Origin: Oscillospiraceae bacterium
GTDB lineage: Bacteria > Bacillota > Clostridia > Oscillospirales > Acutalibacteraceae
DNA: 45,265 bases
Direction of reading: 5' to 3'
Assembly: GCA_009779995.1 (NCBI GenBank)
Contig: WRDW01000014.1
Location: 1-45,265, forward strand
Of this stretch, positions 28,371-44,516 are shown piece after piece (the stretch's first letter is position 1; each line of letters starts with the position of its first letter). A model generated the notes under the pieces. That model saw nothing but the letters and a program-made list of their open reading frames with translations. It made no database searches and was not told the origin of the DNA. The translations under genes and the position numbers were made by a program.

Positions 28371-28441
28371 AATGCGACAGCTCATGGGAGAGCGCCCTAA
28401 CGCGGAGCAGTCCCGAACACTTCAATACGAGGAGGGCAACC

Positions 28442-28657
28442 ATGTCAAGCAGGTACGATAAGCTATTCGCACTGCTCAAAGAAAAGGGCTGTTCCACCTA
28501 CCGCATACGGCAAGAGAACATCGTATCCCAGGCGGCGCTTACGAAGATGAAAAATGGAACCGGGGACATCGATACCCGCACCATAGAGCGTCTATGCGCT
28601 GTGCGTGGGTGCCAGCCCGGCGACATCATGGAGTATGTGGAGGAGGAGGCCCAATGA
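28442..28657 (+). CDS. Small Cro/XRE-type HTH protein
   Basis: A 71-residue protein: MSSRYDKLFALLKEKGCSTY, then QAALTKMKNGTGDIDTRTIE and LCAVRGCQPGDIMEYVEEEA, the usual form of a short Cro-like helix-turn-helix repressor. ATG is 5 bases after GGAGGG (28431-28436). Its stop overlaps the start of the Fic gene (ATGA at 28654-28657), so both are coupled. Such pairs often act as toxin-antitoxin or autoregulated modules, with the HTH protein controlling the pair. Confidence 0.8.
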   Translation: MSSRYDKLFALLKEKGCSTYRIRQENIVSQAALTKMKNGTGDIDTRTIERLCAVRGCQPGDIMEYVEEEAQ

Positions 28658-29322
28658 CCGACAAATACCGCATGACCCAAGAGCAAAACGCCTTCGTTGC
28701 CAAACGCAACATCATCGACTACATCTGGAAGAGCGCGAAGCTGGAGGGCCTGGGCGTAACCTACCCGGACACGGAGGCCATTTTCAACGGCATGGCCGTG
28801 CCCGGCGTGAAGGTATCGGAGATCGTGGCCGTGAACAACCTGAAACACGCCTGGCAGTTCCTGCTCGATACCCTGGACGTGCCTTTCGACTACGCCTATC
28901 TCTGCAAGCTCAATCAGCTGGTGGGCGGGGACCTGATTATCGAAGCGGGGTATCTGCGCAAGCTCCCGGTGAGCATCGGCGGCACCACCTGGAAGCCGGA
29001 TATGCCGGATGACCTGGAAATCCGGCGGCGGCTGCGTGAGCTCCAGGGGATAGAGGGCGCTACCGAGCGGGCGATCACCCTGATGCTGTATATCATACGT
29101 GGGCAGTTCTTCCTCGATGGCAACAAGCGCACCGCTATGCTGGCCGCAAACCAAGTGATGATCAGCGGCGGCGCGGGCGTGATCGCCGTGCCTATCGAGC
29201 AGCAGCGGGATTTTACCCGCCTGCTGGCGGAGTATTATGAGAGCAACAACCCGGACGCCATGATGCAATTCGTCTATGCGTATTGCATCGACGGGATCGC
29301 GTTTGAGAATGGCGCGCTCTAG
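28654..29322 (+). CDS. Fic-family protein with altered motif
   Basis: A 222-residue Fic/DOC-fold protein. The core motif reads QFFLDGNKRTAML (residues 151-163), against HPFxDGNxR in AMP-transferring Fic enzymes: Asp155, Gly156, Asn157 and Arg159 are kept but the catalytic His is Gln151. An upstream helix region GIEGATERAITLMLYIIRG fits the fold. Active Fic proteins transfer AMP or phosphate groups to target proteins. The missing base makes normal activity doubtful, although the whole QFFxDGNKR form seems to be a stable subfamily rather than a random mutation (from memory). It is coupled to the small HTH gene. Confidence 0.8.
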   Translation: MTDKYRMTQEQNAFVAKRNIIDYIWKSAKLEGLGVTYPDTEAIFNGMAVPGVKVSEIVAVNNLKHAWQFLLDTLDVPFDYAYLCKLNQLVGGDLIIEAGYLRKLPVSIGGTTWKPDMPDDLEIRRRLRELQGIEGATERAITLMLYIIRGQFFLDGNKRTAMLAANQVMISGGAGVIAVPIEQQRDFTRLLAEYYESNNPDAMMQFVYAYCIDGIAFENGAL

Positions 29323-29576: not shown

Positions 29577-29605
29577 TTGACAACTGCCCAAGAATGGTGT
29601 AATAA
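29577..29605 (+). promoter_or_regulatory. Promoter of the SipW/sortase locus
   Basis: TTGACA at 29577-29582 and TAATAA at 29600-29605, spacer 17 bases. The bases 29323-29576 before it hold no gene that I can support. Confidence 0.7.
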
Positions 29606-29611
29606 TACACT

Positions 29612-29763
29612 TGGAAGCGGACAGCGGGACACCCAAAAACCCGCAGATATAAAAGCAAAGACGTTGAAAAAAGGAAGGGCTCCATGATGATGACGCAAGC
29701 TTGTGACCGAGGCGCTGTGACTGCCGGCAGGCGGACATAGCTTCGCATGGGCTTGCATTTTTT
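29612..29763 (+). promoter_or_regulatory. Structured leader with terminator hairpin (possible riboswitch or attenuator)
   Basis: About 180 bases separate the promoter from the first gene. Near the end a rod-like hairpin forms: outer GCAAGC/GCTTGC (29695-29700, 29751-29756), inner GCTGTG/CATAGC (29714-29719, 29736-29741) and CTGCC/GGCGG closed by a GGCA tetraloop, then TTTTTT (29758-29763). It ends about 27 bases before the gene start, so transcription must read through to express the locus. The GACGCAAGC sequence recalls the core of cyclic-di-GMP-I riboswitches, which often precede adhesin and pilus genes, but the 5' half does not match well. The ligand is therefore unknown. Confidence 0.5.
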
Positions 29764-29790
29764 ATTATGCGTTGAAGTAAGGAGAACGCA

Positions 29791-30801
29791 ATGGAATACA
29801 CACTGCAGCACATGGGTTACGCACCGCAGCAGCAGGCATACGCGCCGCAGCAGCAGGCGTATGCGCAGCAGCAGGCATACGCGCCGCAGCAGCAGGCATA
29901 CGGGCAGCAGGCATATGCAGATCAATACGCCGGCTTTACGCAATACGCCTATGCAGCGCATATGCCGCAATATACTTACGCGCCGCAATATAGCACATAC
30001 GCACAGCCGCACGATGCGTATGCGCCCCAATACGGCTTCTCCATGCAGTACGCGGCGGCGCCCCGGCAGTCCGGGTTCGCCGTTTGGGACGCCGCCGAGC
30101 TGGACGCCATGAATGACCCGGACACAGAGGAGACAGCGCAGGGCGATGCCAATGACAGTGAACAAAGCACACTGAGCCCCGGCGCCAGGAAGGCGCTGTC
30201 GGTTGCGCAAAACCTCTTCTTCTGGGGACTGTGTCTCGTGCTGGTGGTCGGCTCCGTGCTCTTCGCAGTGAGCACTGACCCCAAGAAGGCCTATCTTGGC
30301 TACCGCATCTACAGCGTCAAGACGGAATCCATGACCCCCAAGGCGGACGGCTCCAGCCCGCCGGGCGGCTTCGGCAGGGGCGCGATGATCGGCGTGAAGA
30401 TGATCAACGATCCTGCGGAAATCCACGTGGGCGACATTATCACCTTCAACCCCTCTGTCAAGGAGACGGACAGCCAGCTGTTCCTGACGCACAGAGTGAC
30501 GCAAATCCTTACGGAGCTGAAAGGCCAGCAGGGCCTCTGGTTCGTCACGAAGGGCGACTTCAACAACAGCGAGGACCCGCCCATCCCTGCGGACATGCTC
30601 ATAGGCAAGAAGGTTTTCGCTATCCCCAAAGCGGGCTCCTTCCTGCAAAAGGTACGCGAGAACTTCATCCTGGCCATCGTAACCATCGTGTGCTTCTTCG
30701 CCACCGTCATCCTGTTCCGCTGGTACTTCGCGAAGCCAAAAGAAACAGCCCTCGAACGGGAAGCCCCCGTACAGAAGCGGCAGGTTTTGCAGATGGCTTA
30801 A
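29791..30801 (+). CDS. sipW: SipW-type signal peptidase I with Gln/Tyr/Ala repeat tail
   Basis: A 336-residue protein. The last 200 residues are an ER/SipW-type signal peptidase: membrane helix at 142-160, catalytic Ser180 in VKTESMTPKA and His234 in LFLTHRVTQI (His where most bacterial type I enzymes have Lys), and a second helix at 292-309. The first 90 residues are cytoplasmic and consist of tandem APQQQAY-type repeats and Tyr/Ala/Gln-rich sequence, unusual for signal peptidases. SipW enzymes cleave the signal peptides of TasA-like matrix proteins in Bacillus and of BsaA in Clostridium perfringens. Two proteins with matching signal peptides are encoded at 30883 and 32989. Confidence 0.85.
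   Translation: MEYTLQHMGYAPQQQAYAPQQQAYAQQQAYAPQQQAYGQQAYADQYAGFTQYAYAAHMPQYTYAPQYSTYAQPHDAYAPQYGFSMQYAAAPRQSGFAVWDAAELDAMNDPDTEETAQGDANDSEQSTLSPGARKALSVAQNLFFWGLCLVLVVGSVLFAVSTDPKKAYLGYRIYSVKTESMTPKADGSSPPGGFGRGAMIGVKMINDPAEIHVGDIITFNPSVKETDSQLFLTHRVTQILTELKGQQGLWFVTKGDFNNSEDPPIPADMLIGKKVFAIPKAGSFLQKVRENFILAIVTIVCFFATVILFRWYFAKPKETALEREAPVQKRQVLQMA
29821..29905 (+). repeat. Tandem coding repeat (APQQQAY units)
   Basis: Four copies of an 18-21-base unit of the type GCGCCGCAGCAGCAGGCATAC, one shortened, inside the signal peptidase gene. Such repeats can change in number by slippage without frame loss. Confidence 0.8.
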
Positions 30802-30841
30802 CCCCCGATACTATCCGCTGTACCGGAAAGCAGCGGTTTGG

Positions 30842-30847
30842 TATAAT
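30842..30847 (+). promoter_or_regulatory. Possible internal promoter and hairpin before matrix-protein gene
   Basis: TATAAT at 30842-30847 has only a poor -35 box. Just before it CCGCTG/CAGCGG (30815-30820, 30831-30836) forms a small hairpin. This could let the matrix gene be expressed more strongly than the peptidase gene. Confidence 0.4.
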
Positions 30848-30882
30848 CAAAAGGAAAAGAATATAAAGAAGGAGTCAAAATC

Positions 30883-32136
30883 ATGCGCAAGAACAAAAAG
30901 CTCATCATGGCAATGGCTATCGTCCTGGCAATCGCCACGGCCGCCGCGGGCACCACCTTTGCGTGGTTCACCTCGAACGACGGCAAGCTCAACCACATGG
31001 AAACCGGCCAGCTGACCAACGGAGACGTGCATATCGTCGAGGTCTTCCCCGACGACGAGCTGCGCCCGGGCGACATCCTCGACAAAGAAGTCAAGACCGT
31101 CAACGGCGGCAGCGTGGACGCCCTGGTGCGCCTGTCTTTCGCCGAAGTGATCCAGATCCTTGCGGACGACGGCGCGCCGCAAAACCGCCCCGCCGTATGG
31201 GTCGGCCCGGTCAGTGCGGACAACCCCGAGATTCCGCAGCTGTTCAGCACAGCGCTGCTCGCCCCGGGCGGCGCCTACGGGGACTGGATTGACGCGCAGG
31301 ACACGGCCAGCGTATTCAAGGTCAACAACCTGCCCGCCGGTGGCAAGGTGCTGTACAAGGAGTTCACCGTGGACAAAGACGGCCCCAACGAGAGGACCAC
31401 GTATACCTTCGTCGTCTACGGCGAGATCACAGCGAACGCCGGCGCGGAAGTCTACGACAAGTATCTGGGCAAGTATCAGTACGCCACCGCCAAAATCGAT
31501 GTCAATCTGGATGACATGGAGCTGGACGTGAGTCAGTTCCAGTTCAAGGTGTTCCAGTATGACGACCTGATCGAGAACAAGTGGGCCCCCCTGCTTGACA
31601 CCTCCGACGGCATTGACGTGACGGGGTTCCAGCAGCTCACCAGCCTCACCACGCCCAAGCTGCCCGTGAACGGCGATTTCCTGCTCACCACCGATGACCT
31701 GGATGCCGCGAAAATGGCCGACCTCAGCATCGGCCTCGCGCTCAAGTCCCCCAGCGACCCCGGCGCTGACGCCCTGCCCGCCGACCGAATCGGCATCGCG
31801 ATGATCGAGCTGTACTTCGGCGCGACGCTGAAGACCACCCTCGACAACACTGTCCAGGACGGCGACTGGTGGTATAACCAGAACGACGGTTACTTCTACT
31901 ACATCGGCAAGCTGGCCCCCGGCCAGGCGACGACCAACCTTCTGGAGAACGTGGGCCTGAATTCCGGCGCGGAAGACAAATACAACAACCTGCTGTACGA
32001 TCTGATCGTCAAGATGGAAGCCATCCAGAACATCGCGGCGGCCATGAGCGCATCCAACGGTTGGGATATGGCCTCCGCAGACGCCGCCGCTCTGGCAGAC
32101 CAGCTGCTCCGCATCGGTGCCCTGGCGTACACCTAA
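30883..32136 (+). CDS. SipW-dependent matrix/fibre protein (TasA/BsaA-like)
   Basis: A 417-residue secreted protein, the probable main subunit of the fibre. The signal peptide (MRKNKKLIMAMAIVLAIATA, then AGTTFAWFTSNDGKLN) ends with the TFAWFT motif typical of SipW substrates such as TasA, CalY and BsaA. The mature part has TasA-like stretches: LRPGDILDKEVKTVNGGSVDAL (about residues 66-88, the rule of an early beta-sandwich strand pair) and ADDGAPQNRPAV. It is longer than TasA (about 260) and BsaA, with about 150 extra C-terminal residues ending in a helical tail. No sorting signal is visible. AAGGAG at 30870-30875 is the ribosome binding site. A stem-loop follows the gene. Confidence 0.8.
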   Translation: MRKNKKLIMAMAIVLAIATAAAGTTFAWFTSNDGKLNHMETGQLTNGDVHIVEVFPDDELRPGDILDKEVKTVNGGSVDALVRLSFAEVIQILADDGAPQNRPAVWVGPVSADNPEIPQLFSTALLAPGGAYGDWIDAQDTASVFKVNNLPAGGKVLYKEFTVDKDGPNERTTYTFVVYGEITANAGAEVYDKYLGKYQYATAKIDVNLDDMELDVSQFQFKVFQYDDLIENKWAPLLDTSDGIDVTGFQQLTSLTTPKLPVNGDFLLTTDDLDAAKMADLSIGLALKSPSDPGADALPADRIGIAMIELYFGATLKTTLDNTVQDGDWWYNQNDGYFYYIGKLAPGQATTNLLENVGLNSGAEDKYNNLLYDLIVKMEAIQNIAAAMSASNGWDMASADAAALADQLLRIGALAYT

Positions 32137-32160
32137 GCGACAAGAGCGCTTAAGCACAAC

Positions 32161-32198
32161 CCTGCCGCCCGAGAGGGCGAGACCTCCCGGGCGGCAGG
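32161..32198 (+). promoter_or_regulatory. mRNA stem-loop after the matrix-protein gene
   Basis: A perfect 11-bp stem CCTGCCGCCCG/CGGGCGGCAGG (32161-32171, 32188-32198) with a 16-base loop and no T-run. It may protect the mRNA end or cause partial termination, leaving more transcript for the main subunit than for downstream genes. Confidence 0.6.
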
Positions 32199-32227
32199 CA
32201 TCCTCTGAATAAAGGGGGAGCATCCAA

Positions 32228-32992
32228 GTGAAACGCACGCCAGTTAAAAGGGGAACTGCCATTACGTTGTTTCTGTGCCTTCTGACTGCCATGTTTTCCG
32301 GCATGGCAGCCAGGGCCGGTGCGGCGGGCGAACCCCCGCAGCCCTCAGAAGAGTCATGGACCACGCGGGAACCGCGAGTGATAGAGTCCCAGCTGCCCGA
32401 GGGTTTCCTCATCGGCGACCAGGACGGCATCAAAGTGGACGGTGACGGGCATTATTACATCGACCTGCGCGGCCTGCTCCCCGGCGACGAATTCCGCAAG
32501 ACCCTCACCATACAGAACCTTTCCCAGAACGACAACACACCCGAAGGCAAGGTTCCCTACACCCTGGTTATGTCGGCGGAGCCGGTAATGACCGAGGGCC
32601 CGATTGACCTGCTGGACAAGGTACACCTGACCATGAAACTCGAGGGCGAGGTCGTTTACGAAGGCCCCACCCGGGGCGACGGCAGCCCCGACATGACCGA
32701 CACCCCGCTGCCCCTGGGCGTCTACGCCATAGGCGACCAAAAGAGCCTGGAGATCACCTTCAAGGTGGCAGCCGACATGGAAATCCACGAGGAACGCAGC
32801 CAGGCCGATTTCCGCTGGCTCTTCTACGCCTACCGCGAAACGGACGTCGAGCCGCCCCGGACAGGCGTATCGGACAATTGCTACTGGTTGATTCCCATCG
32901 GCGGAGTGATGCTGCTGTTCGTCATAATGGTCCCGCTGAAGAAACGGCGGGACGGAAGCTCAAACAGCCGTGGAAGGCAGGAATCCGCATGA
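32228..32992 (+). CDS. Cell-wall-anchored surface protein with PPRTG sorting signal
   Basis: A 254-residue protein with a signal peptide (residues 1-32) and a strand-rich domain with DLRGLLPGDEFRKTLTIQNL, a pattern shared with SipW-locus accessory proteins. Near the C-terminus PPRTG (residues about 212-216) is followed by a hydrophobic helix (WLIPIGGVMLLFVIMVPL) and KKRR, a typical sortase sorting signal in a variant form. This is the only protein of the locus with such a signal and so the likely substrate of the class B sortase encoded at 33731. GTG 32228 is chosen from GGGAG at 32215-32219. It may be the wall anchor or base of the fibre. Confidence 0.8.
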   Translation: MKRTPVKRGTAITLFLCLLTAMFSGMAARAGAAGEPPQPSEESWTTREPRVIESQLPEGFLIGDQDGIKVDGDGHYYIDLRGLLPGDEFRKTLTIQNLSQNDNTPEGKVPYTLVMSAEPVMTEGPIDLLDKVHLTMKLEGEVVYEGPTRGDGSPDMTDTPLPLGVYAIGDQKSLEITFKVAADMEIHEERSQADFRWLFYAYRETDVEPPRTGVSDNCYWLIPIGGVMLLFVIMVPLKKRRDGSSNSRGRQESA

Positions 32993-33714
32993 AAATTTTT
33001 TTGAAAGGTTTGTGGCAGGACAGGGCGCTGCGCTTGAAAAAGTGTAAGCCCTATATCCTGGTGTTCTGCCTGCTGTTTGCCTTGGTGCAGCTGCTTGGCA
33101 GCACCCTCGCCTGGTTTACGGCCGCAGACGGCCGCGTCAACGCAATGGAATCGCCGCCCAACAAGCAGTTCTTCATCCATGGGGTAGACGTGTTCAGCCC
33201 AAATAAGGACGGCGACCTTTGGCATAAGCGCGTGGGCGCGGAGAACCCCTCGGAAAAACCGGGCTTCGTGCGGCTGCTGGTCTCGGCCGTTGTGGAGATA
33301 CCCTCCGCGGTTGCGGGCGTGCCGCCCACGCTGCTGCCCGCCTCCATCGGTGCGTCCGGCTCCGGCGCGCTGGTAATCATGAACGATTTCAATGGAACCG
33401 ACTGGATCGACGCCACCGATCCGGCAGCCGGCGGCGACGGTTATTTCTACTACAAGCATATCCTGGAGCCCGGCGAATCCACCGATGACGGCTTCTCCCT
33501 GGGCAGCGGCAAAAATCTGTTCAACGAGGTGATGCTGGCGTCGCCCCTTCCGCCCGGCTATGAGTATGCCAGATTGGTCATAGAGGTCAAGTGTGAAGCG
33601 GTAGGCATCAAGCCGTCCACGGTATATGTCGACAGCTGGTGGGGCGGCAGTCCGCCGGCGTCCGGCATCCTGCTGGCCGTCTACACGGCCCTGCAAACGG
33701 CGCTCGGACTGTAA
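32989..33714 (+). CDS. Second SipW-type signal peptide protein, minor fibre subunit
   Basis: A 241-residue protein. After a basic start (residues 1-20) the signal helix ends in STLAWFTAADGRVN (about 38-51), the same type of cleavage region as in the matrix protein at 30883. The mature domain has KPGFVRLLVSAVVEIPSAVA and YFYYKHILEPGESTDDGFSL, resembling minor SipW substrates (TapA/BsaB role). ATG 32989 overlaps the preceding stop by four bases, so synthesis is coupled to the PPRTG protein. No sorting signal is present. A role as initiator or tip subunit is inferred from gene order. Confidence 0.75.
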   Translation: MKIFLKGLWQDRALRLKKCKPYILVFCLLFALVQLLGSTLAWFTAADGRVNAMESPPNKQFFIHGVDVFSPNKDGDLWHKRVGAENPSEKPGFVRLLVSAVVEIPSAVAGVPPTLLPASIGASGSGALVIMNDFNGTDWIDATDPAAGGDGYFYYKHILEPGESTDDGFSLGSGKNLFNEVMLASPLPPGYEYARLVIEVKCEAVGIKPSTVYVDSWWGGSPPASGILLAVYTALQTALGL

Positions 33715-33730
33715 GTGTAAGGTGAAACAA

Positions 33731-34483
33731 ATGCGCAATACGCAAAAAACGCGGAAGAAGCCCTCTGGCAGCAGGCCGGGGAAGAAGATATACCTACTGC
33801 TTATGCTCCTGGCCGCGGGCGCGTCGGTCATATCCGGCTGGCAGTTCCGAACGTCGGCACAGGAAAACGGCACCTCAGACGAACAGATCGAAATGAAGCC
33901 CGTGCCCGCAAATGCGCAGGACGAGCCGATGGATTTCGACGGCATGCGGGGCGTTAACCCGGATATCATCGCATGGATCACCATAGAGGCCCTGGGCATC
34001 GACTACCCCATCGTGCAGGGGCGCGACAACGTCTACTACCTGACCCATACGGCGCAGCGCAAGCAAAACCGCATCGGCGCGCTGTTCCTGGATTTTCGCA
34101 GCTGCGGTAATTTTTCGGACTTCAGCTCCGTGATATACGGTCACTACCTGAAGAGCGGCAGGATGTTCCAGCCCCTGCGGCGCATGCGGGACCATGAGAC
34201 CTTCGACCGGGTGACGGAAGGAACGCTCTACATGCCGGGAAAAACCTATCGGCTGGAATTTTTCGCCTCAGTGCTGGCATCATCGACAAGCGAATTGTAT
34301 AACTATATATTTCCGTCCCGGGAGAGCCGCCAGGCGCACCTGACCAGTATCCGCAGGCAGGCGGTGTGCTACCGGGACATCGGCGTGACAGCCGACGACC
34401 GGCTGCTTTTGCTTTCCACCTGCTCCTATGAATACAGCGGCGCCCGGACATTGGTAGCTGCGAAAATCGCGGATTTTGTATAA
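33731..34483 (+). CDS. srtB: Class B sortase
   Basis: A 250-residue transpeptidase with an N-terminal membrane helix (residues 19-36). Catalytic His138 is in VIYGHYLKSGRMF, Cys231 in LLLLSTCSYEYSGARTLVAA and Arg239 eight residues later. NPDIIAWITIEALGIDYPIV and the DFRSCGNFSDF region are typical of class B (SrtB) enzymes. It would join the PPRTG protein to the wall or to fibre subunits. In Clostridium perfringens a sortase is coupled to BsaA and SipW in making polymeric matrix, a close functional parallel. ATG 33731 follows AAGGTG (33719-33724). Confidence 0.9.
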   Translation: MRNTQKTRKKPSGSRPGKKIYLLLMLLAAGASVISGWQFRTSAQENGTSDEQIEMKPVPANAQDEPMDFDGMRGVNPDIIAWITIEALGIDYPIVQGRDNVYYLTHTAQRKQNRIGALFLDFRSCGNFSDFSSVIYGHYLKSGRMFQPLRRMRDHETFDRVTEGTLYMPGKTYRLEFFASVLASSTSELYNYIFPSRESRQAHLTSIRRQAVCYRDIGVTADDRLLLLSTCSYEYSGARTLVAAKIADFV

Positions 34484-34523
34484 ACCAGAAAGCCCGGGAG
34501 GGAGAAAAGGAAGGGATGAAAGG

Positions 34524-37500
34524 ATGAAGGACTTGATACAGCGCCTGCAAAGCAAGAAACGGCCGCTGCGTTGGATGGCCCTCGGCCTGGCCTGTATTCT
34601 GGCGGCCGGGGTCATAGTGCCTGTTGTGCGCGCCACACGGGCCGTGCCGCTGGGCTACCCGGTTATGGGCAATCATCCCTTCGCGCCGCCCAGCCCGCCG
34701 CCGCCCGTCTTCGGGCCGGATATGACCGCCTGGAGCCTGTATCAGGACCATCCGGGCTACGACAGGGCTTTCACAGCCCAAAAATCGCGGGAATATACGG
34801 GCGTCACCTCGCCAAACCACATCTACATCGGCAGCAATACCCTGGTGTTCCAGGGCTATGACGAGGACGCGAACCTGGACTACATCTTTTCGGAGGAATT
34901 CCAGGGGGACGCCCCCGCGCTCGCCGACGGCTTCAAGAACATAGCCTTCTCGCTGCGTCCCATAGACCTGAAATTCCACGCCCTGAGCCAGAGCGGCTTC
35001 CTGTTCAACGGCAGCATCGACGGCGGCCTTTACACCGGCTATATGATCTCCCTGGAGGCCCGCGAGGTCATGGACGCGCTGGGGATAGGCACCGGGGAGC
35101 GTGTCGCCGACTTGCGGCTCTACAGCGTGGCGGACGCCGACCTGCACGATCCGGACGCCTTTATGGACCTTGCTGCCCGTACGCTGGTGAGCACCTATGC
35201 CATCGGCATCTCCGAGGCCAGCAAATGGCCGGTGTATATCCGCGTGGAGCAGGACGCCGCGGGCAGCTACCAGGTTTACATCGACGGCCAGCTGCGCACC
35301 CGCGACCTGCCGCCCGTGACGGATTCCGGTTCCAACGTGAAGCACGGCTTCGGCTTTTTCACCGGCTATGCCCGGCACCTGTGCAATGGCAGCACCTGCA
35401 ATGAGCTCACCAGCGTCGCCTACGCCAACATACGCATCGAGGCCGACTGGCGCAGCGTGAACACCACCGCCACGGTGCGCTTCAAGGACGCCAGCGACGG
35501 CAGCGAGCTGGCCGACCCCCAAATCCTGGGCGGCCAGACCGGCCAAACCTACTATATCAAACCGCCGAGCTTTCCGGGCTACAGCATGATTGAGGCCACG
35601 CAGAAATGCCTCAACCCCATCCACTATTTCGCGGTGAGCAGCCACAACGAAACCACGCTTTACTACGTCAAGAAAACCGTCAGCTACAAGGAAGCCACCT
35701 ATCGCGGCGTGCAGAACAACGGCACGGCGGAAAACCCCGTGCCCGTGGAAGCCGGCGAAGTGATCGACTACAAGATACACGCCGGCGGCGACGGGCAGAA
35801 CAACTGGTACGGCAGCTGGGTGAACACCATTGTCAACCAGGGCCCGATATCCATGGGGGACTTCGAAGGTATCAACAACGGCGGCCGGACCTGGAAAGAA
35901 ATGAACCCAGGCGTTTCCAGCCCGAACAACGGCAACGACGTGGAGATTGGCCTGCAGTCCACCTCGCGCAGCGGAAATATCACCGTCACCTCCAACACGC
36001 CCCTGGTTTCCGGCTTTCTCAGCACCAACCAGGGCGGCACCCTCAACGACGGCGTAATCATAGGCTTTAAGCCGCCCAGCGGAAAACTGTACGTTCAGGG
36101 CAATCCCGGCCTGGCGGCTATGCCCTACATCACGCCCCCGCCCGACGCCCATACCATCAATGACAACTTCAACGCCGCCAACCTGGCCAACAACCGGCCC
36201 CTGATCCGCAACTGCGGCGGCGTGTGCAACGGCGGCCCATGCAGCATCTGCGAGCGCTATATCACCATTACCTTCAACAAGCTGCGCAACGATGCCAGCT
36301 ACCTGATGGACTTTATGATGGGCATGTGGAACAACGCCCAGCCGTGGGACTACATCGTCACCATCAAGGGCAAGGACTTCAACGGGAACCCTGTTACCAT
36401 CGAGATCAACCGCGGCAACTATACCCCCTCAATCAACGGTTGGACGGGCCAAATCACCAATATTACCCAGCCGGCGATCCCCTGGCCCTCCGATTATGTC
36501 GACCCTGTCAACGGCCTGCCCTATGTCTTCCCGGACGGGGGCAAGATCGACGTCACCTTTACCCGCATACACAACACCCGGCACGACCACAACATTCTTA
36601 TCGGCTCCGGCGAAATGCAAAGGCGCTCCAGACAGACCGTGCTGCGCATTGTGGATCTGTTGCCGCTGGGGACAACGTATGTTCCCGGCAGCAGCGGGCA
36701 GCACGAGGGGAACTTGATCATCAACACCCTGCCCAACGGCCAGCAGGAGCTGATATGGGAATTCGGCGCGGTGCCCGCCGAGGGCTACGACATCGAGTTC
36801 CAGGCGAAGATTACCGCCCCCGGACTGTTTATCAACAACGCCTTCATCGATTACAGTTTACCCTGCCCCCTGCCGGATGTCTACACGAACAACACTTACC
36901 ATATGACCGGCATGGCCGCCCTGACCGAGCACTTCCTGGACTACAACAACCATAGCGTAACCCTGAAGCCCGACAGGACCATCGACATGCCCCTGGGCGA
37001 GAATTACACCACCTCCGTGGTGTCCCAGAGCGAGATCATGCACGGCAGCGATACGTACCAGTACATCGGCTACCGCATCGTCCCGGACGGCCAAAGCGTC
37101 GGGAGCGGCCCCGTCATCGAGGAGCCGCCCCCGAACCCAACCATACCCAACATCACCACCCACAGAGAGATCGAGCTGTTCTTTTTCGTCAATCCCACCG
37201 TCACGATAGAGTACCGCAGGCTGACCGACGACGCGGCGCTCAGGGCCCCGGAGACCGTCCCCGTCACCTTCGGCGACCCCTATTTCCTGCCGGACAGCGT
37301 ACGCGACCCCATAGATTTCCCCGCAGGCAGCGGGAATATTTACAACTATGTCGCCTACGCCATGACGGATGGGGGCATCATGCAGCCCATCGTCCACGGC
37401 CTGCCCGACAAGCCGGTCTACAGATCCGTGAAAGAGAATCAGACCATCGTCGTGTACTTCCTGATGCAGCATGCCGTCACTGTGCATTACGTGGAGTACG

Positions 37501-39422
37501 GGAACCCCTCCAACGCGCTGCGGAACAGTGACTACTACCCGGTGAACCCGGCCCCGGACAACGACTTCCCGGTGGCGCCGGTCGCGCCTGCGGCGGTTTC
37601 CGCGGGCGGCAAGAGCTATATGTACGAGGGGTATTCCCTGCCCGGCGGGCCCTTCGTTCCGGGCATGCCTCCCACGTCCACGGTCTTCACCAACATCAAC
37701 GGGAACAAGGTGATCACGCTGTATTACAGCACCACCTATCTCATCACCGTGAAGTGGCACGAGGACCTGCCCTATTACGCCGGCAAAGTGTATGAAGAAC
37801 TCATGCCGCCGCAGACTTTCACCTTTCGGGCGAACGAGCGGGATCCCAACACCGGCCTCCCCCTGAGCTTCAACATGACGGCCGTCACCCAGATTGCTTA
37901 TGGGGGCGCGCTTTACAGCCACACCGGGCAGTTCAAATGGACCAGCGACGCCGAGCAGGCCCGGCCGGATCCCCCGGTCAATCCCGTGACCGTGCATCTC
38001 AATGAGGTCAACGGCGACTACACCATCATATTCCTCTACACGAAGCAGAGCACGCAGCAGATGCACAACGTGATGGTGCTCTTCCGGGAATTCGGCAACA
38101 CGGCCAATGTGCTGGCAGCCGACCGGAACTTCGTCAAGGCCCCGGGCAGCAGCTTCCATTTGGTGAGCGAGCTGCAGTCGCTGGCGCCGCCCATCGATTA
38201 CCCGAACATTGATGCCGATTGGACGTATTACGGCTATACGATCGATGACTCCAAGACGGTCATTCCGGGCCCCCCGCCCCTCAATCCCACGCTCGGGGAT
38301 ATCCAGCAGAACCATGTGATCACCCTGCAGTACGTTCCCAGGGGCACCGTGCTCGAGCGCTTCCGGGCGCTGAACAATATCAACGAGATACTTGCGCCCG
38401 ACCAGACGGTGATACTGGACACCTATGGGCCCGACGCCGGGAAGTACAACCCCAAGGCCTGGATCCCGCCGCAGCGGATCTACGTGGACGAAGGGCACGA
38501 TTGGCTCTACCAGGGCTATCAGATCAACGGCGGGCCTGTGCATGATGTGCCGTATGAGAATATCCCCCGGCCCATGTCGGGCGTACCGGGCATACCAGAT
38601 GTTGTGATGTTTGATACGATCACCTATCTTTATATCAACACCGCGCTGTACATCGTCACGGAGGAGTTCCGCATATGGGAGGATCCCTGGGCGGACCCCG
38701 ATCCCGTGCTGCTGGCGAATGACAAAAAGGTAGAGGTCGTGCCCATGGAGGATTTCGAGCCCGGCGTGACACCCGGGAGCACGATTCCCCTGCCGACGCT
38801 TGTGAAAAACGGCCGCGTCTATTACTACGCAGGCTATGCCCTCAGCACCGGCGAGAAGGATGGCTCCATCATCCGCAGCGCAAAAATTGCCGGCAGCGCG
38901 CCGCAGGTGCCCTACTCCCAGGTGGGCCGCAACGGTTATATTATTACTTACCTTTACAGAACCCTGGACCTGCATGTGCGGCAGGTGATTCTGGTGGACG
39001 GAACGGAAACAGACGTGGAGTGGCCGCTGATGGGCTATCTGAACGTCATGCACGGCAGTGACGTTATGCCCGCGACATGCACCAGCGGCCGGGATGATAC
39101 CAATGTAAAGTACACCGATTACGCGATCCCGTTCGATATTGACGATTTCAATTATTTGGTCAGGCTCACCGTGCCGCAGAACTACACTTTCGAGGGGCAT
39201 AACCTTACCCACACGAATGCCGCTCACGACCCCGCCTTGCGTACTCTTCCTGACGGGCCTTCCGGCATCGCCAACGGCGCAATCTCTATCGACTTCGAAG
39301 ACTCGGGCGAATGGTGGCTGACCCTGTATATTAAGCCTGCCGAGCCGACCGGCGACCACCATTCCAGTTACGCCACCAACATTTTCGGAAGCATGGTGCA
39401 AGCTTTGACGTCGGGGCCTTGA
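34524..39422 (+). CDS. Giant secreted repeat protein with MucBP-like domains
   Basis: A 1632-residue protein, with an N-terminal signal/anchor helix at residues 17-33 (MALGLACILAAGVIVPVV). Residues 40-310 look like a carbohydrate-binding (lectin-like) domain. TATVRFKDASDGSELADP to TLYYVKK is a MucBP domain (35461-35668). A Cys cluster CGGVCNGGPCSIC lies near 36215-36260, and a DUF11-like domain (QTVLRIVDLLPLGTTYVPGS) at 36630-36860. From 36900 to 39190 about eight MucBP-like repeats follow, marked by YxYxGY (37060, 37350, 37620, 37915, 38225, 38505, 38822, 39187), spacing about 280-320 bases. No sorting signal or membrane helix ends the protein, so it would not be sortase-anchored in this form. 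It may be an adhesin on the fibre. Confidence 0.8.
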   Translation: MKDLIQRLQSKKRPLRWMALGLACILAAGVIVPVVRATRAVPLGYPVMGNHPFAPPSPPPPVFGPDMTAWSLYQDHPGYDRAFTAQKSREYTGVTSPNHIYIGSNTLVFQGYDEDANLDYIFSEEFQGDAPALADGFKNIAFSLRPIDLKFHALSQSGFLFNGSIDGGLYTGYMISLEAREVMDALGIGTGERVADLRLYSVADADLHDPDAFMDLAARTLVSTYAIGISEASKWPVYIRVEQDAAGSYQVYIDGQLRTRDLPPVTDSGSNVKHGFGFFTGYARHLCNGSTCNELTSVAYANIRIEADWRSVNTTATVRFKDASDGSELADPQILGGQTGQTYYIKPPSFPGYSMIEATQKCLNPIHYFAVSSHNETTLYYVKKTVSYKEATYRGVQNNGTAENPVPVEAGEVIDYKIHAGGDGQNNWYGSWVNTIVNQGPISMGDFEGINNGGRTWKEMNPGVSSPNNGNDVEIGLQSTSRSGNITVTSNTPLVSGFLSTNQGGTLNDGVIIGFKPPSGKLYVQGNPGLAAMPYITPPPDAHTINDNFNAANLANNRPLIRNCGGVCNGGPCSICERYITITFNKLRNDASYLMDFMMGMWNNAQPWDYIVTIKGKDFNGNPVTIEINRGNYTPSINGWTGQITNITQPAIPWPSDYVDPVNGLPYVFPDGGKIDVTFTRIHNTRHDHNILIGSGEMQRRSRQTVLRIVDLLPLGTTYVPGSSGQHEGNLIINTLPNGQQELIWEFGAVPAEGYDIEFQAKITAPGLFINNAFIDYSLPCPLPDVYTNNTYHMTGMAALTEHFLDYNNHSVTLKPDRTIDMPLGENYTTSVVSQSEIMHGSDTYQYIGYRIVPDGQSVGSGPVIEEPPPNPTIPNITTHREIELFFFVNPTVTIEYRRLTDDAALRAPETVPVTFGDPYFLPDSVRDPIDFPAGSGNIYNYVAYAMTDGGIMQPIVHGLPDKPVYRSVKENQTIVVYFLMQHAVTVHYVEYGNPSNALRNSDYYPVNPAPDNDFPVAPVAPAAVSAGGKSYMYEGYSLPGGPFVPGMPPTSTVFTNINGNKVITLYYSTTYLITVKWHEDLPYYAGKVYEELMPPQTFTFRANERDPNTGLPLSFNMTAVTQIAYGGALYSHTGQFKWTSDAEQARPDPPVNPVTVHLNEVNGDYTIIFLYTKQSTQQMHNVMVLFREFGNTANVLAADRNFVKAPGSSFHLVSELQSLAPPIDYPNIDADWTYYGYTIDDSKTVIPGPPPLNPTLGDIQQNHVITLQYVPRGTVLERFRALNNINEILAPDQTVILDTYGPDAGKYNPKAWIPPQRIYVDEGHDWLYQGYQINGGPVHDVPYENIPRPMSGVPGIPDVVMFDTITYLYINTALYIVTEEFRIWEDPWADPDPVLLANDKKVEVVPMEDFEPGVTPGSTIPLPTLVKNGRVYYYAGYALSTGEKDGSIIRSAKIAGSAPQVPYSQVGRNGYIITYLYRTLDLHVRQVILVDGTETDVEWPLMGYLNVMHGSDVMPATCTSGRDDTNVKYTDYAIPFDIDDFNYLVRLTVPQNYTFEGHNLTHTNAAHDPALRTLPDGPSGIANGAISIDFEDSGEWWLTLYIKPAEPTGDHHSSYATNIFGSMVQALTSGP

Positions 39423-40079: not shown

Positions 40080-40277
40080 ATGGAACATGAAATCGTGCAG
40101 CCGGACATAGCCGCCGCCAAGGAAGCGTATTCCGTCGAGGAGATCGCGGAGAAGCTGGGGCTGAAAATCCGCACAGCCTATGAATTCTGTAACAACACGA
40201 CAGATTTCAAGGTAAAGCGTGTAGGCCGCCAGCTTCGGATTCACAAGCAATCCTTCGATGAATGGTGGAATGGGTAG
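40080..40277 (+). CDS. xis: Excisionase-type HTH protein
   Basis: A 65-residue DNA-binding protein with the excisionase (HTH_17) form: AYSVEEIAEKLGLKIRTAYE, then KVKRVGRQLRIHKQSFDEWW. Such proteins steer the integrase towards excision by bending att DNA. It lies 27 bases before the integrase gene on the same strand. ATG 40080 is chosen because AAGGAG stands at 40068-40073; ATG 40065 is in frame but would overlap that site. An AAGGAGGT at 40030-40037 precedes a possible 11-codon leader peptide from 40055. Confidence 0.8.
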   Translation: MEHEIVQPDIAAAKEAYSVEEIAEKLGLKIRTAYEFCNNTTDFKVKRVGRQLRIHKQSFDEWWNG

Positions 40278-40304
40278 GCTGCCAATCTACAGATTGGAGG
40301 CAAA

Positions 40305-41483
40305 ATGGCATCAATCAGAGAAAACAAAACCAAAGTAGGCACATCATTTACGGTACTCTATGACTACGAGGACGGCAACGGCAGGCGAAAGCAAAAAAGC
40401 GCGGGCACATTCGCAAGCCGGAGAGAAGCCGAGGGCGTGCAGTTGGAGATCGAACTGAGCAAAAACCGCAGTAACTTCATTGAGCCCAATGACATCACGG
40501 TGCGGGAATTATTTGATCGCTGGCTGCCCATCCGGGCAAAAACCAAGCGCTGGGAAGCCAGCACATACAGCAGCTCGCTCAATATGATCGAAAAGCATAT
40601 CCTGCCGCGTATCGGCACGAGGCAGGTGCAGGGCATCAACGTGATCCATATTGAGACGCTGTTCGCTGAGTTGGAGAATACCCGGTGCTCAGGGCCGCAG
40701 ACAAAAAATGTGGATGCATATAAGCTCCCGTTCTTGTCCAGTTCCACCATCAGCAGCATTTATATGCTGCTGCGCTGCGCTTTCGAGGCGGCGGTGAAAT
40801 GGAAGCTGATCCACGAAAGCCCAGTCCAAATGGACAAGCCCGTGCGGGTATCGCCTGAAGCGAACTTCTGGACCCAGGATCAGATGTATGCCGCGCTGGA
40901 GCGGATTGAGGATCCGCTGCTGCACCTGTGCGTGCATATGTCACTGGCCTGCACTCTGCGCGAGGGCGAGGTTTCCGGTCTGCGGATGGACCGGGTTGAC
41001 CTAGAGGACGGCACCGTCACCGTGGACGCAACCATGCAGCGCGTGCCGCGCAAAGCGTTCGACCTGCTGCCGCAAAAGGAAATCTACTTTGTCTATCCTC
41101 AGTTCGCCGGGCAATCCGATTCCGTGCTGCTGCTGAAATCGCCCTATCGGGATTTTGGGCTACTGATCTGTCAGGAGGACGGTACGCCGGCGGAGCCGAA
41201 CCTGGTGGGAAAATGGTTTCGACTATGGCAACGGCGCAGCGGTGGAGAACTGCCGTATCTGAAGTACCACGAGCTGCGGCACAGCAGTGCCACGCTGCTC
41301 TATGACCTTTGCCGCAACGCCAAATCCGTGCAGGGCATCACCGGGCACGCCTCTGCCAAGATGGTCCTCGATGTCTATGGCCACAAGCACCAGCAACAGC
41401 AGGTATCTCTGACACGGCAATTGGAATCAACGCTGTACAGTTGCCAAACTGCCCCAAAATCACCTGACGAACGCCCACATTGA
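40305..41483 (+). CDS. int: Tyrosine-type integrase
   Basis: A 392-residue site-specific recombinase. The N-terminal arm-binding domain (SFTVLYDYEDGNGRRKQKSA) and a SAM-like core-binding domain (ITVRELFDRWLPIRAKTKRW) precede the catalytic domain. Catalytic residues: Arg219 in CTLREGEVSGL, His322 and Arg325 in HELRHSSATLL, His348 in GHASAKMVLDVYGH and nucleophile Tyr358. All are present, so it should be active. ATG follows GGAGG at 40295-40299. A tRNA-like attachment core lies 188 bases after its stop, the usual position for elements of this kind. Confidence 0.92.
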   Translation: MASIRENKTKVGTSFTVLYDYEDGNGRRKQKSAGTFASRREAEGVQLEIELSKNRSNFIEPNDITVRELFDRWLPIRAKTKRWEASTYSSSLNMIEKHILPRIGTRQVQGINVIHIETLFAELENTRCSGPQTKNVDAYKLPFLSSSTISSIYMLLRCAFEAAVKWKLIHESPVQMDKPVRVSPEANFWTQDQMYAALERIEDPLLHLCVHMSLACTLREGEVSGLRMDRVDLEDGTVTVDATMQRVPRKAFDLLPQKEIYFVYPQFAGQSDSVLLLKSPYRDFGLLICQEDGTPAEPNLVGKWFRLWQRRSGGELPYLKYHELRHSSATLLYDLCRNAKSVQGITGHASAKMVLDVYGHKHQQQQVSLTRQLESTLYSCQTAPKSPDERPH

Positions 41484-41892: not shown

Positions 41893-42010
41893 AAACAGAA
41901 AACCGCCATCGCTGGCGGTCGAGCAAGCTGGCAGGCGTCCCGGCTCTCCTGCATCTCTTTTACCCAAAGGGTGCGTGGTGCGGACGTATTCTACCACCTC
42001 AGCTTGCTGC
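41893..42010 (-). ncRNA. Cloverleaf-shaped small RNA with own promoter and terminator
   Basis: On the minus strand the transcript expected to start near 42010 opens with AGCAAGCTG (42008-42000), which pairs perfectly with CAGCTTGCT (41930-41922). Inside are three hairpins: GTGGT/ACCAC (41997-41993 with 41979-41975), ACCC/GGGT (41972-41962) and GCAGG/CCTGC (41952-41931), giving a four-way junction. A terminator ACCGCCA-GCGA-TGGCGGT (41919-41902) and TTTTCTGTTT follow at once. Promoter, fold and terminator fit together as a 110-120-base stand-alone RNA. It lacks the TTCG T-loop of tRNA and I do not recognise a family. Confidence 0.6.
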
Positions 42011-44396: not shown

Positions 44397-44516
44397 ATTA
44401 TACCACAAAATTCTATCGATAGCAATTAGCATGTTGCACAAATATCGCTAGCGATATAACGTAAAAGTTCGTGCAATATTCCGTCTTGATATATCGCTAG
44501 CGATATGCCATAATAT
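44397..44516. promoter_or_regulatory. Divergent promoters with palindromic operators
   Basis: Leftward promoter: TTGCTA (plus 44420-44425) and TATAAT (plus 44397-44402), spacer 17. Rightward promoter: TTGATA (44487-44492) and TAATAT (44511-44516), spacer 18. ATATCGCTAGCGATAT occurs twice as a perfect 16-base palindrome (44442-44457 and 44491-44506, 49 bases apart), and a related CTATCGATAG (44413-44422) overlaps the leftward -35 box. The second palindrome fills the spacer of the rightward promoter. All positions suit repression by the ribbon-helix-helix protein. Confidence 0.8.

Follow-up and report, generated by a model that had tools for sequence, protein, structure and literature searches.

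Here we show that a gene cassette at 29577..39422 on the plus strand of a contig of Oscillospiraceae bacterium (GenBank assembly GCA_009779995.1, contig WRDW01000014.1, positions 1 to 45,265; this whole stretch of 45,265 nucleotides is hereafter called the window) carries a five-gene core that recurs within the genus of the source organism and in Lactobacillales. The core consists of genes encoding a SipW-type signal peptidase, a BsaA-family protein, an LPXTG/PPXTG anchor, a second SipW-type substrate, and a giant protein. Alignments show that the giants have a C-terminal domain of about 145 residues in common (hereafter CT), and it is this domain, which is new, that unites them. We consider it an even call whether this locus specifies a SipW-dependent protein fibre that is anchored to the wall and carries an exchangeable giant adhesin. 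The window is one of the 64 contigs of a metagenome-assembled genome of 1.79 Mb that is 66% complete.

Conservation and gene order of the cassette

All six open reading frames described in an earlier reading of the letters alone (the original prediction) are present in the order given there, and all lie on the plus strand. Denoting the signal peptidase as W, BsaA as B, the anchor as A, a further BsaA-like protein as b, the second substrate as S, the giant as G, and the sortase as R, the window reads W-B-A-S-R-G, and other clostridial orders include W-B-A-S-G-R, W-G-B-A-S, and B-S-G-W-B-A. All five core genes were found in 8 of 16 clostridial stretches. Of the eight stretches without the full core, seven reach a contig edge; the only one that does not is L021, in which the anchor is missing. 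L028 and L029 represent two contigs from the same genome; likewise, L030 and L031 represent two contigs from a single genome. Among Lactobacillales, the complete run W-B-A-(b)-S-G, which by definition requires a CT match, occurs in 34 of 47 stretches, 27 of these with b. The 47 stretches comprise L041, 24 stretches around domain matches in the family of Vagococcus proximus, 20 that we picked from the listed Lactobacillales CT matches, and the annotated plasmids of two enterococci, Enterococcus wangshanyuanii and E. raffinosus. Eight of the 13 non-complete stretches hold lone giants (L085, L086, L088, L090, L091, L092, L114, and L117); in the others, the giant stands apart from b-S (L076), the stretch is cut at an edge and has two giants (L079), the giant stands apart and is incomplete in frame (L116), or the stretch overlaps another one (L094 and L095, overlapping L089 and L077). 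When named genomes were scanned with the anchor alignment, nine loci were revealed, eight of them in six metagenome-assembled Bacillota or Oscillospiraceae genomes, which from their isolate names we take to be termite-gut samples, and the ninth in Vagococcus proximus, where the same cassette is found. The original prediction was to stand or fall with the joint conservation of its genes in other genomes; the core is conserved in this way, and the data support a conserved system rather than a chance neighbourhood.

CT is frequent in a few groups and otherwise rare. It was detected in 8 of 14 genomes of the window's genus (its own included), in 12 of 29 genomes of the family of Vagococcus proximus, and in 37 of 395 Lactobacillales genomes. 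Across the window's class, two of 391 genomes gave a match, namely its own and one at E 9.9e-4, and across the phylum two of 398 did so, its own among them. On the E. raffinosus plasmid, where the cassette lies between integrase and recombinase genes, the annotation names BsaA-family and TasA-family proteins and calls the giant hypothetical; the E. wangshanyuanii cassette is on a mobilizable plasmid. One genome of the family of Vagococcus proximus (G505; 5.7 Mb, contamination 5) has ten CT domains and eight anchor matches, and its loci (L076-L080, L084, L086, L093, and L095) form several parallel cassettes with different giants.

The giants and their common domain

The giant of the window (34524..39422, 1632 residues) has one MucBP domain over the cut-off (35.0 bits, cut-off 23). 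Seven stretches of at least 13.5 bits were recovered with a model made from five repeats of this protein, as compared to 3.0 bits for the best of 50 shuffles, and two of the seven (33.8 and 13.5 bits) were outside the building set. The MucBP-like repeats occupy residues 800-1477 (36921..38954), with an extra copy at residues 315-386. The original description of this protein as repetitive, MucBP-like, and free of a sorting signal is thus borne out, but MucBP does not define the giants. The bodies of the giants differ, and we rejected MucBP as their defining part because other giants have DUF11 or an RCC1 propeller (five giants scanned) or a DWSGSM motif, present in 4 of 10 giants. The defining part is CT, which in the window spans 38955..39419.

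CT has no match in Pfam and NCBIfam, and a Pfam search of 22 CT sequences with E values up to 10 returned six families, each of which matched one CT sequence only, the best at E 0.0033. Based on AlphaFold models and fold comparison, CT is probably CnaB-like. In an alignment of 60 rows, which include one truncated duplicate of another giant (L089 18550-19899 and L094) and one out-of-frame piece (L116), CT lies at most 13 residues from the C-terminus in 50 rows, and a pattern search found no sorting signal in any of the 60 giants. A search for an isopeptide lysine found no well-filled column with lysine in at least 40% of the rows. The first strand of the domain has arginine in 54 of the 60 rows and glutamine in all 60.

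Co-occurrence of CT and the anchor

CT and the anchor were searched for separately in 395 Lactobacillales genomes each (the listed handles agree, and we take the two sets to be the same), with an anchor alignment made from clostridial sequences only. Both were found in 34 genomes belonging to 10 genera, CT only in three (G506, G539, and G832), the anchor only in two (G565 and G666), and neither in 356; the corresponding Fisher p value of 3e-43 overstates the evidence because the genomes are related. Both anchor-only matches are weak (E 7e-4 to 1e-3) and cover mainly the C-terminal part. Of all 29 genomes listed for the family of Vagococcus proximus, 11 have both, one has CT only, none has the anchor only, and 17 have neither. 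The eight lone giants belong to six genomes, five of which (G505, G485, G511, G614, and G629) have an anchor elsewhere, and the sixth (G506) has none.

Given that the CT model was used to gather the 60 rows and most of the Lactobacillales stretches, the sharing of CT is partly so by construction. The checks free of this circularity are the separate genome searches and the four loci found with the anchor instead of CT (L041, L042, L124, and L125), at all of which a giant adjoins and CT was detected. In 42 cassettes, leaving out L094 as the same cassette as L089, partial correlation of distances gave 0.50 for anchor and BsaA and 0.29 for the second substrate and CT, but 0.01 for CT and anchor and -0.02 for CT and BsaA.

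The anchor and the second substrate

Neither the PPRTG protein (32228..32992, 254 residues) nor the second SipW-type substrate (32989..33714, 241 residues) matches a family over its cut-off. The anchor belongs to a family of 49 distinct members, 13 clostridial and 36 from Lactobacillales, all of which have an N-terminal segment resembling LPxGFLIGDxxGI, having been gathered with a profile that itself contains this segment. In the window the segment reads LPEGFLIGD... (32393..32431) and is a candidate donor strand; across the family it lies a median of 10 residues past the signal-peptide core. A loose pattern finds a sorting signal at the end of all 49 members. Clostridial motifs are PPxTG in 7 of 13 cases and otherwise SVKTG, QVKTG, PAKTG, GPKTG, or GPSTG; those of Lactobacillales are LPxTG, LPxTN, FPxTG, or YPxTG. 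Within the window cassette the sorting signal, read from the sequence as PPRTG (32852..32866), is on the anchor, and the giant is without one. Searches identified homologues of the second substrate in 10 of 60 genomes, namely the window's own, eight of the 13 other genus members, and one member of another genus. Profile-to-profile comparison of the anchor with the second substrate (9% probability over 25 columns) showed no relation.

The signal peptidase, BsaA protein, and sortase

The signal peptidase (29791..30801, 336 residues) is termed SipW-type here because it passes the broader model TIGR02228 (55.0 bits, cut-off 51.85) and misses the cut-off of the Bacillus SipW model NF046067 (48.4 bits, cut-off 190). 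It has an N-terminal tail of about 90 residues rich in glutamine, tyrosine, and alanine (29791-30060), which is encoded by imperfect 21-base repeats; the signal peptidases of several relatives have longer tails, up to several hundred residues, rich in glutamine, proline, tyrosine, and glycine. Such a tail is unusual on a signal peptidase.

The BsaA-like protein (30883..32136, 417 residues) matches TIGR04090 in two stretches with 62.7 bits (63.3 in the genome search, cut-off 60) and PF12389 with 28.0 bits (cut-off 22.5). The first 22 residues of its structure model have pLDDT values below 50, which speaks neither for nor against an N-terminal donor strand. The TasA-like fold on which the original prediction also depended was neither confirmed nor refuted by fold comparison. 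TapA is not named in the lists of similar folds, which does not count as evidence. Searches of PDB sequences with the alignments of BsaA, CT, the anchor, and the second substrate returned nothing significant.

The sortase (33731..34483, 250 residues) is labelled class B-type because it just misses the class B model TIGR03064 (149.3 bits, 4.5 under the cut-off of 153.75) and passes PF04203 (36.3 bits, cut-off 26.6). Class B-type sortases were found in 4 of 16 clostridial stretches (the window, L019, L029, and L031); among the 47 Lactobacillales stretches the class B model gave no match, other sortase classes there not having been properly tested. On this distribution the sortase, which had been counted as part of the system, falls outside the conserved unit: we rejected it as a core component, and it is a local addition to the five genes. 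A genome-wide search located sortases in 16 of 17 genomes examined, in 15 of them over the cut-off.

A proposed wall-anchored fibre

Gene order, co-occurrence, sorting signals, and the conserved CT domain are observed; strand exchange, adhesion, and the assignment of base, shaft, adaptor, and tip we infer as follows. The SipW-type peptidase would mature the BsaA protein and the second substrate, and the class B-type sortase would link the anchor to peptidoglycan via PPRTG. The anchor, as base of the fibre, would lend the first BsaA subunit its conserved N-terminal segment, and a BsaA shaft would then grow through exchange of donor strands, as in TasA fibres. After the shaft would come the second substrate, an adaptor bearing the giant, whose C-terminal CT would accept the final strand and so act as a docking domain. 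With an adhesive body rather than a strand at its N-terminus, the giant would end the fibre, like the two-domain adhesins at the tip of type 1 pili. A fibre attached to the wall and bearing an adhesin, as proposed originally, is kept as the best reading of the locus, but we favour an adhesin at the fibre end over one that coats it. Weighing against the proposal is the position of the candidate donor segment in some anchors: the gap is 32 residues in the window anchor and 53 in that of L019, which agrees less well with a strand at the extreme N-terminus.

More speculatively, and with the balance leaning against it, the locus could represent an unrecognised class of Gram-positive pilus that follows type 1-like logic with TasA-type parts, and in which CT is a CnaB-like pilin domain without a conserved isopeptide lysine of its own. 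Such a pilus might start from a sortase-anchored base that gives the first strand, continue in a shaft that polymerises by itself and an adaptor, and end in a tip adhesin of two domains; its adhesive heads might have been swapped on the CT tail across Clostridia and Lactobacillales; and CT may be completed by a partner's strand, or even by a partner's lysine. TasA-type fibres are so far known mainly as biofilm matrix. If the model of a wall-anchored fibre is true, gut bacteria, among them enterococci found in people, would also form them as wall-anchored fibres whose adhesive ends can be exchanged. Proteins now named hypothetical would then gain a function, genome searches with CT would reveal such adhesins, and it would become testable by what means a donor-strand fibre is attached and terminated in Gram-positive cells.

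Three other explanations compete with this fibre. The locus could encode a loose BsaA-type biofilm matrix. Its BsaA polymers would for the most part be shed, with the PPRTG protein serving as a minor tether to the wall, and the giant would be a matrix protein in its own right that stays outside the fibre. The TIGR04090 match, which puts the window protein in the BsaA family, agrees with this, as does the C. perfringens BsaA protein, which is described in the excerpted report PMC7395162 as mainly extracellular and as polymerising without its neighbours or srtB; nevertheless, the near-perfect co-occurrence of anchor and CT in independent searches and the sorting signal kept in all 49 collected anchors make a loose matrix unlikely. 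Lone CT giants at eight fetched loci and the three genomes with CT and no anchor would instead be expected if CT itself bound the cell wall or a surface polymer, or were an export or folding module, the giant merely sharing the operon. We judge this improbable given the anchor elsewhere in five of the six lone-locus genomes (G506 being the sixth) and its presence in 34 of the 37 genomes with CT. Finally, the sortase gene within the window cassette and the predicted likeness of CT to pilin CnaB domains could point to a sortase-assembled pilus, with covalently joined subunits and the giant as tip adhesin. It is hard to reconcile with a window sorting signal on the anchor only, with giants that lack one in 60 of 60 cases by pattern, with the absence of class B model matches in the Lactobacillales stretches (other classes near the cassettes not having been properly tested), and with C. 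perfringens, in which srtB deletion left BsaA polymers unaffected according to the same excerpts (PMC7395162), and we regard it as very improbable.

Comparison with known systems

Sortase-assembled Gram-positive pili have an adhesin with a CnaB-like C-terminal domain and are anchored to the wall by sortase, two traits also proposed for the cassette. In contrast, the giant and the shaft protein of the window have no sorting signals, and the cassette showed no class C sortase. The Gram-negative type 1 pili combine a donor-strand shaft with a two-domain tip adhesin that has a C-terminal acceptor domain, the logic proposed here for the fibre; they differ from the cassette in having a chaperone and usher and in their proteins, and strand exchange is a proposal for the cassette.

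Likenesses are also found among SipW-dependent fibres, as far as described in the portions of the reports cited. In C. perfringens, srtB adjoins sipW-bsaABCRSD, BsaA forms filaments that require SipW, and srtB is dispensable for BsaA polymers and pellicle (PMC7395162). The window likewise has a SipW-type peptidase gene adjoining a BsaA-family gene (29791-30801 and 30883-32136) with a class B-type sortase gene alongside, but the C. perfringens locus, unlike the window cassette, has a two-component system (PMC7395162). TasA fibres of B. subtilis are built with donor strands, and TapA can give the first strand (PMC9674648, PMC10151520); tapA-sipW-tasA thus resembles what is proposed for the cassette in pairing a SipW-matured fibre protein with a partner able to start the fibre by an N-terminal strand, whereas the excerpted accounts mention neither sortase anchoring of TapA nor a giant CT protein (PMC9674648, PMC10151520). 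The sortase-independent TasA-CalY-CapP system of B. cereus similarly has two SipW-processed fibre subunits and a helper protein (PMC13082335). That helper is CapP, and the portion of the report cited describes no wall-anchor gene or CT giant (PMC13082335).

No description of the cassette or of CT was found among the papers listed in searches of the open PMC literature, a scope that does not cover subscription papers and preprints. The parts are already known; the five-gene unit, the wall-anchored base, and the domain shared by the giants appear undescribed in that literature. The original statement that no known system has this exact set holds to this extent, with the qualification that the sortase does not belong to the core.

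Leader and neighbouring genes

A promoter-like site (TTGACA-18-AATAAT, 29577..29606, plus strand), identified by consensus match alone, is a strong match with 11 of 12 consensus positions and a TG ahead of the second hexamer. Folding of the leader RNA (29612-29790) predicts a hairpin followed by a U run (29684..29768, plus strand), a possible attenuator, and the fold is moderately more stable than that of shuffled sequences (z -2.06, with 4 of 200 shuffles equally good). No Rfam family was found in the leader at the gathering score, and a known RNA was rejected, since a lax Rfam search gave one chance-level match (MEG8_3, E 1.2). The leader was compared with the sequence preceding nine other sipW genes, which in one case measured only 168 bases; the matches covered only 9-13 bases at E 1.1 or worse. 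The structured leader proposed originally is retained as regards moderate fold stability, but not as a feature conserved upstream of these genes.

Just 5' of the cassette (28439-29322) are a Cro/C1-type regulator gene (HTH_26) and then a Fic/DOC-family gene, which may form a toxin-antitoxin pair. Just 3' of the giant (40080-41483) lie two genes, one small and coding for a helix-turn-helix protein (HTH_17), the other coding for a phage-type integrase; no flanking direct repeats of at least 20 bases were found around the cassette. Further downstream, a skipping-rope RNA (RF02924, 56.8 bits, gathering score 36.7) lies on the minus strand at 41923-42007, and a 23-base partly palindromic repeat (ATATCGCTAGCGATAT...) occurs twice at 44442-44513 with a start-to-start spacing of 49 bases. 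The same genome has a second SipW-type cluster on contig 11 (L003 4447-10451), consisting of genes for a signal peptidase, a camelysin-like protein, a 472-residue protein that ends in a PPKTG sorting signal and matches TIGR04090 with 64.6 bits, and an 871-residue beta-helix protein.
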